A DNA stretch of 50,485 bases from Candidatus Yanofskyibacteriota bacterium (GTDB lineage Bacteria; Patescibacteriota; Minisyncoccia; 2-02-FULL-40-12; GWA2-44-9). The stretch covers positions 1-50,485 of the forward strand of contig JADLBM010000006.1 in NCBI GenBank assembly GCA_020847715.1. The letters run 5' to 3'. Position numbers and translations under genes: made by a program. How positions within the stretch are numbered: the first letter of the stretch is position 1; every line of letters starts with the position of its first letter. Below, piece after piece: positions 8,605 to 8,910 of the stretch. The notes beneath the pieces are model-generated. The model did no database searches, was not told the origin of the DNA, and worked only from the letters and a program-made list of their open reading frames with translations.

Positions 8605-8676
8605 GCCGCGGTAGCTCAGTGGTAGAGCGCAGCCCTGAAGAGGCTGGCGTCGGGGGTTCAATTCCCTCCCGCGGCA
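8605..8676 (+). tRNA. tRNA-Phe(GAA)
   Basis: GCCGCGG/CCGCGGC acceptor, CAGCC CTGAAGA GGCTG. Confidence 0.9.
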
Positions 8677-8677
8677 C

Positions 8678-8722
8678 AATGCAAACCAGGCCGCCCTTGC
8701 AGGGCGGTTTTGGTTTGCATTG
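8678..8722 (+). terminator. Hairpin after tRNA-Phe
   Basis: AATGCAAACCAGGCCGCCCTTGCAGGGCGGTTTTGGTTTGCATT. Confidence 0.75.
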
Positions 8723-8725
8723 CTC

Positions 8726-8864
8726 GCCACGGCCGGGAATTGAAGGGCATTGAACCGAGCGAACTGCTTCGCTCGGTGAGAGTCCAGGCTCCGGAGGAGC
8801 ATCGGAGCATCCGCCGAAGGCGGTGGCGAAGATGCGGGGGAGGAGAATTCCCTCCCGCGGCACA
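8726..8864 (+). repeat. tRNA-3'-end-mimicking palindromic element, copy B (tRNA-Phe)
   Basis: 5' arm GCCACGGCCGGGAATT is an imperfect reverse complement of AATTCCCTCCCGCGGC; AATTCCCTCCCGCGGCACA (8846-8864) is an exact 19-nt copy of the tRNA-Phe 3' end (8660-8678). Confidence 0.85.
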
Positions 8865-8910
8865 TAAGCAAAAGCCGACCCCATGCGGGGCCGGCTTTTG
8901 TGTTGGAGTA

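Follow-up and report, generated by a model that had tools for sequence, protein, structure and literature searches.

Counterparts of the E. coli tRNA-linked repeats behind tRNA-Phe and other tRNA genes of Patescibacteria, with ends that match the adjoining tRNA

Introduction

Descriptions of tRNA-linked repeats (TLRs) in E. coli go back to 1978. They are met under several names, namely the 178-bp repeats of tyrT-tyrV, the Rfam family RtT (RF00391), and the T1-TLR-T2 arrangement of rrnB. E. coli K-12 has 22 TLRs, and 18-19 bp of such a repeat are the same as the end of the tRNA or rRNA that precedes it (PMC8144298). According to the same 2021 paper, they have "no known function," and those behind rrnA/B/D yield sRNAs that bind Hfq and CsrA (PMC8144298).

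Here, we describe units in Patescibacteria that are the counterpart of these repeats and share a layout already known from E. coli. The unit treated in most detail, element B, lies behind tRNA-Phe in a window of 50,485 nucleotides. The window is contig G000:C7 of a 687-kb genome in 26 contigs, G000.

Materials and methods

The Patescibacteria genomes analysed are metagenome assemblies. Units were searched with two covariance models, R1 for the type I core and R2 for the type II core (both defined below). The E-values given are rough, as calibration was short. A presence table built on a loose motif was dropped as over-permissive, and covariance-model matches were used for the counts.

Results

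Element B behind tRNA-Phe

The initial annotation had read 8605-8905 as a succession of tRNA, hairpin, arm, core, tRNA 3' copy, and hairpin. Every part was found where it had been placed (all on the + strand):

8605-8677 (+): host tRNA-Phe(gaa), intact (ARAGORN, Rfam); its T-loop junction 56|57 is 8659|8660.
8678-8721 (+): hairpin T1, terminator-like, the start of inserted unit B (from the sequence).
8726-8744 (+): inverted arm GCCACGGCCGGGAATTGAA, 84% complementary to 8657-8675.
8735-8744 (+): subsegment GGGAATTGAA of the arm, fully complementary to tRNA-Phe positions 54-63.
8745-8845 (+): type II core, which forms two arms of a three-way junction; pairing of arm and copy closes the junction (fold z -4.1, alignment A3, relatives).
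8846-8864 (+): copy AATTCCCTCCCGCGGCACA of tRNA-Phe positions 57-75, 19/19 identical to 8660-8678.
8869-8900 (+): hairpin T2 after the copy (inverted repeat; ortholog in G023).

The terminal 19 nt had been said to match tRNA-Phe and do so throughout; at the local base composition, an exact 19-nt repeat would arise within 300 nt by chance with a probability of approximately 2e-9. The arm matches tRNA-Phe as well, but it had been drawn 3 nt short, the missing GAA being the complement of T-loop positions 54-56. Folding of 8600-8912 gave a z-score of -7.9. Element B is 92% identical to its ortholog in G023, a relative of the same genus, in which the T1 hairpin is retained with altered arms.

The insert consists of the T1 hairpin, the arm, and the folded core. 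On either side of it stands a copy of the terminal 18-19 nt of the tRNA; hence, the upstream tRNA is intact, and its displaced end is found downstream of the insert.

In an Rfam scan of the window, which included matches below threshold, no family accounts for the units. The tRNA-Phe gene of G023 has a group I intron in its anticodon loop (RF00028, 72 bits; L104 3758-3983, on G023:C9), which is absent from the tRNA-Phe of G000. This separate intron was the sole RF00028 match of the Rfam search, and none was found at the units.

Other units in the window and in the genome

Further units in the window, with their hosts and parts, are the following:

6476-6549 (+): tRNA-Lys(ctt), host of element A (ARAGORN).
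6554-6593 (+): hairpin T1 of element A (from the sequence).
6604-6618 (+): arm CGCTGTGGATTCGAA of element A, complementary to the T-loop and T-stem of tRNA-Lys.
6607-6718 (+): element A, type I unit (covariance-model match, 81.7 bits).
6710-6727 (+): copy of tRNA-Lys positions 57-74 in element A, 18/18 identical.
43929-44034 (-): type I unit behind tRNA-Met 44091-44163 (covariance model); its core is 96% like that of the tRNA-Ser(cga) unit of G023.
44386-44491 (+): type I unit behind tRNA-Met 44258-44330, called Met2 (covariance model).
44482-44500 (+): copy of tRNA-Met 44312-44330, 19/19.

Element B had been presented as a second unit like element A. The two have the layout in common, but the core differs, A being of type I and B of type II. 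Type I is found at Lys and most other tRNAs, and type II at Phe (element B) and Glu. When the flanks of all 45 tRNAs of G000 were read, the layout was present at more than 12 of them, every copy matching its own tRNA. R1 detected 15 units in this genome with E below 1e-7. All are at tRNAs, with the exception of a second unit further along behind tRNA-Asn. Behind the tRNA-Phe of G023, a type II unit comes first and a type I unit second (G023:C9 55971-56267), so that both core types stand in tandem.

Spread in relatives and placement beside tRNAs

A small non-coding insert behind many tRNA genes is a genome-wide and phylum-wide pattern in Patescibacteria. Type I units occur in 20 of 28 genomes of the family (0 to 19 per genome), in 32 of 45 genomes of the order, and in at least 22 of 389 genomes of a phylum sample in which the best candidates alone were scored. 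R2 gave 12 strong units in the order, and those with flanks readable by ARAGORN adjoin Glu, Asp, Ser, and Phe tRNAs. When GTDB genomes were scanned with a pattern, the strong matches bore the names of Patescibacteria lineages (Yanofskybacteria, Magasanikbacteria, Kuenenbacteria, Komeilibacteria, Kaiserbacteria, Adlerbacteria, and others), with the exception of a few titled just "bacterium." A viral origin was considered and rejected: IMG/VR held 32 pattern matches, none of them convincing under the covariance model (best E 0.02).

Placement was followed in 124 type I units. The unit is on the same strand as a tRNA and at most 141 nt downstream of it in 101 cases, which cover 37 anticodons, and on the strand opposite to the tRNA in none. 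The other 23 have no detected tRNA within 200 nt; they include second units, displaced units, and units at contig ends or beside tRNAs that ARAGORN missed.

Footprint of copy and arm on the own tRNA

In type I units, the copy is a sharp block of 18-19 nt that starts at tRNA position 57, extends as far as the 3' end, and is abrupt at both edges. Its match to the own tRNA is 0.88-0.97 across most of positions 57-72 and 0.83-0.86 at the last two, against 0.05 at T54/T55 and 0.41 beyond the tRNA end. The exact block begins at 56/57 in 54 of 59 units and ends at 74-76 in 42 of 59. Copies are identical to their own tRNA at a fraction of 0.85 and to other tRNAs at 0.57, and the own tRNA beats all other isotypes in 74 of 98 units. 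The proposal that the ends track the adjoining tRNA is thus borne out, and identical element ends beside unrelated tRNAs, which would have spoken against it, were not seen. Some copies (Lys, Ser-cga) contain CCA; a derivation from mature tRNA was rejected, since the displaced original gene end explains the CCA (Ile-gat).

The arm is complementary to positions 54-68 of the own tRNA and no further (98 type I units). Its match to the own and to other tRNAs, respectively, is 0.85 and 0.28 at position 59, 0.78 and 0.36 at position 63, 0.76 and 0.25 at position 64, and 0.60 and 0.35 at position 66, and it is at background from position 69 on. At tRNAs with unusual T-loops, four of five arms follow positions 54-56, a stretch absent from the copy. 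Hence, the arm matches the intact tRNA across junction 56|57 and not the copy alone. For Gly-tcc, tRNA base 59, copy, and arm change together between G000 and G023. An acquisition of the arm match with age found no support, as the match does not correlate with copy identity, although this is a weak test in which detection bias favours intact P1, the helix of arm and copy.

Fold of the core

In type I units, P1 closes a three-way junction. Across 114 units, 646 cells are altered on both sides of a pair, a count reached in 0 of 500 shuffles, and slid controls gave 65-104. The type II core folds into the same outline with a different sequence. Pairing constraint acts on the three-way junction of the core, and the fold is better explained on the tRNA-sense strand: G.T pairs outnumber A.C pairs by 113 to 55 in the type I alignment, which favours this strand as the folded one, although the alignment was fitted to the model and the result leans toward the tRNA-sense strand for that reason.

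Evidence on movement

The presence of units varies between related species, and closely similar cores stand at different tRNAs. Ile-gat, Val-tac, and Ile-tat are filled in G023 and empty in G000, and the G023 sequence after the copy continues as the G000 sequence after the tRNA. At Tyr-gta, a unit is present in G023 only, and T1 is repeated after the copy. In the other direction, Met 44091 is filled in G000, while G023 has a terminator and no unit there. Remnants of units were seen at several tRNAs in the comparison of the two genomes. Units common to both include those at Lys and Met2 and element B; host function would also give such retention. Two marks of a mobile element are found, presence or absence at one site with target duplication and a like core at several sites.

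The most alike cores are those of Met 44091 in G000 and Ser-cga in G023 (96% by alignment score). Among 56 units compared, the nearest core lies within the same genome in 19 (3.5 expected) and has the same anticodon in 8 (1.7 expected). The initial annotation had argued against simple copying of one element. This stands for the ends, which are reset, but not for the core: near-identical cores behind different tRNAs indicate that the core is copied and the ends alone are reset. Tyr and Asp have T1 in duplicate as well, which would not be expected from a target duplication of 18 nt alone. At the same tRNA (Lys, Ser-gct; e.g., 6554-6593 vs L104), the inner arms of the T1 stems are wholly different between species, and the hairpins are still perfect, so that the change is both fast and coordinated.

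Tyrosine integrase and reverse transcriptase were considered as drivers and rejected, as the occurrence of neither tracks unit number. Phage_integrase has no match in G000, and most relatives have one Xer-like gene or none. Among the family genomes, reverse transcriptase is missing from several that are rich in units, and RVT_1 occurrence does not follow unit number. All eight family genomes that lack type I units have a reverse transcriptase, and 8 of the 20 with units lack one, which may be chance. Genes between tRNAs and distant units are mixed, mostly without a Pfam match (Trypco2 and RibD_C were identified), and include no common transposase.

Further tRNA-associated repeats

Some tRNAs are preceded by 5' copies (6398-6475; L043, L039, L051): for tRNA-Lys, Arg-gcg, Val-cac, and Pro-ggg, the initial 15-36 nt recur upstream of the tRNA, and hairpins have been inserted within the D-arm or behind it. 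The tRNA Pro-ggg is nested between its own 5' half and its own 3' half. In L039, a small GIY-YIG nuclease gene (PF01541, E 1.5e-13; 492-833, - strand) separates the 5' copy from the intact tRNA-Val(cac), an arrangement that a homing-type insertion would give. A second tRNA-trailing repeat family, ACTTGGCCACTCC...GGAAGTGGCTGGCCAAGTGTCCTGAGCGCATAGGCGCGAAGGAC, has no copy and begins immediately past tRNA 3' ends. It is found at 10600-10669 (-) and 10774-10843 (-), after Thr-ggt, Arg-cct, and Leu-cag, and after the Met2 copy.

Discussion

Proposed mechanism

The reading that we prefer, with a probability of roughly 0.7, is that the units are non-coding mobile elements of the TLR class which duplicate 18 nt of the target and carry an arm matching it. 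Element B would be a non-coding insertion of roughly 165-190 bp that entered the tRNA gene at its 3' end. The element may move as a unit and be mobilised in trans, by a putative enzyme that would cut at two places approximately 18 nt apart, the T-loop and the tRNA 3' end. The arm complements the intact tRNA over positions 54-68, on both sides of junction 56|57; as RNA or single-stranded DNA, it could pair with the target and aid site choice. If mismatches were tolerated around the conserved TTCRANYCC of the T-arm, one element could reach many tRNAs. The stronger claim that the arm is a guide, which by such pairing across 56|57 directs insertion with a staggered 18-nt target duplication, is rather doubtful. 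Counting against the preferred reading are the lack of a tyrosine recombinase or reverse transcriptase that tracks the units, the retention of some units between species, the 23 units with no tRNA detected nearby, the duplicated T1 at Tyr and Asp, and the independence of arm match from copy identity.

Target-templated ends had also been suggested. For the direct copy, templating is not needed, because an insertion that duplicates 18-19 nt of its target yields the copy, and the empty and filled pairs fit this. The inverted arm is the part that does require a guide, templating, or later tuning; gene conversion, which had been suggested as well, may also have shaped it.

Alternative explanations

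The units might belong to the host, as a small RNA or processing spacer that is transcribed by read-through of T1, processed, and kept by selection, while selection, or gene conversion with the tRNA, would keep the ends matched. The unit 3' end imitates the tRNA 3' end, which would allow processing of the unit RNA, and the E. coli TLRs behind rrnA/B/D do give Hfq- and CsrA-binding sRNAs (PMC8144298). Pairing conserved across species, the Lys, Met2, and Phe units retained in G000 and G023, and the joint variation of tRNA base 59, copy, and arm at Gly-tcc would suit such a role too. We nevertheless consider it unlikely: the distribution is patchy, with many relatives lacking units, no consistent tRNA species is served, and there are recent empty/filled differences as well as remnants at several tRNAs. 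Exchange between tRNA loci by gene conversion or template switching would do without a mobile element, hairpin-templated repair copying the cores and rewriting the arms to the local repeat. The coordinated change of T1 arms at one site (Lys, Ser-gct), the tandem T1 duplication in Tyr and Asp, and the excess of nearest cores within the same genome (19/56 vs 3.5) point in this direction. Clean gain at unit-less sites (Ile-gat, Val-tac), however, demands insertion of a whole unit, which makes this explanation distinctly improbable.

tRNA 3' ends are the usual attB sites, and each unit could accordingly be the attR scar of a tyrosine-integrase element. Such islands (attL/attR) resemble the units in that the tRNA 3' end is restored upstream and the displaced 3' end lies downstream, and genes do lie between the tRNA and the second unit at Gln-ttg (G022) and near Asn. 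The units themselves have no integrase and no genes and share one common folded core at 37 anticodons. As G000 has no Phage_integrase match, most relatives have a single Xer-like gene, and no unit was found in viral contigs, an origin as island remnants is very improbable. Hardly credible is a self-splicing intron at T-loop 56|57, in which the arm would serve as internal guide sequence and span both exons. Group I and group II introns do resemble the units in a guide-like arm that is complementary to both sides of the insertion junction, here 56|57. Against an intron, the tRNA upstream is complete as it stands, and the core has no match among the intron families of Rfam. At ~95 nt, the core is also far below the size of known group I introns.

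Comparison with known systems

tRNA-targeting non-LTR retrotransposons and SINEs are like the units in being non-coding and in making a target duplication of comparable size. The units differ from them in that several unit-rich genomes have no reverse transcriptase, in the lack of a poly-A or primer tail, and in the arm complementary to the target.

The closest system is the TLR of E. coli. The units have two properties by which TLRs are defined (PMC8144298), a position downstream of a tRNA (101/124) and an 18-19-bp identical 3' end (element B 19/19, block 57-74). When the tyrT-tyrV, arg, lys, and rrnB loci of E. coli were re-read, the order at rrnB was T1, unit, copy, and T2. In both groups, the repeats stand on the same strand downstream of a tRNA (in E. 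coli also 5S) gene, share the 18-19 nt of their 3' end with the 3' end of the upstream gene, and occur in tandem. A hairpin is seen between gene and unit at rrnB and behind the lysQ and lysV units, and pairing of arm and copy in the tyr, arg, and several lys units; proM has no TLR. E. coli differs in its few host RNA species (tyr, arg, lys, and 5S were examined) as against 37 anticodons in Patescibacteria, in arms that pair with about 59-68 and not with T-loop 54-57, and in the core sequence, GTTGC..GCAACGGCCCGAAGGGCGAG.

Searched against 34 kb of E. coli tRNA loci, R1 gave four matches at E up to 10, all of them TLRs on the correct strand, although weak (E 0.004-0.07). With the Rfam RtT model (RF00391), none of the 28 family genomes exceeded the gathering score of 45 bits (best 17.6 bits), and this reverse search had one sub-threshold match at a unit, that of Ser-tga. 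Common descent of the Patescibacteria units and the E. coli TLRs seems likely.

In the Patescibacteria units, the TLR layout is seen across a minimal-genome phylum and at 37 anticodons, together with the empty sites, the covarying fold, and the target-tracking arm. The units also bear on the tolerance of essential tRNA genes to insertion at the 3' end. With them, the TLR question becomes testable as regards mobility, the arm as guide, and the enzyme involved. If the arm did act as a guide, TLRs, from Patescibacteria to E. coli, would constitute a novel type of non-coding mobile element that resides in tRNA genes and is directed by a guide.
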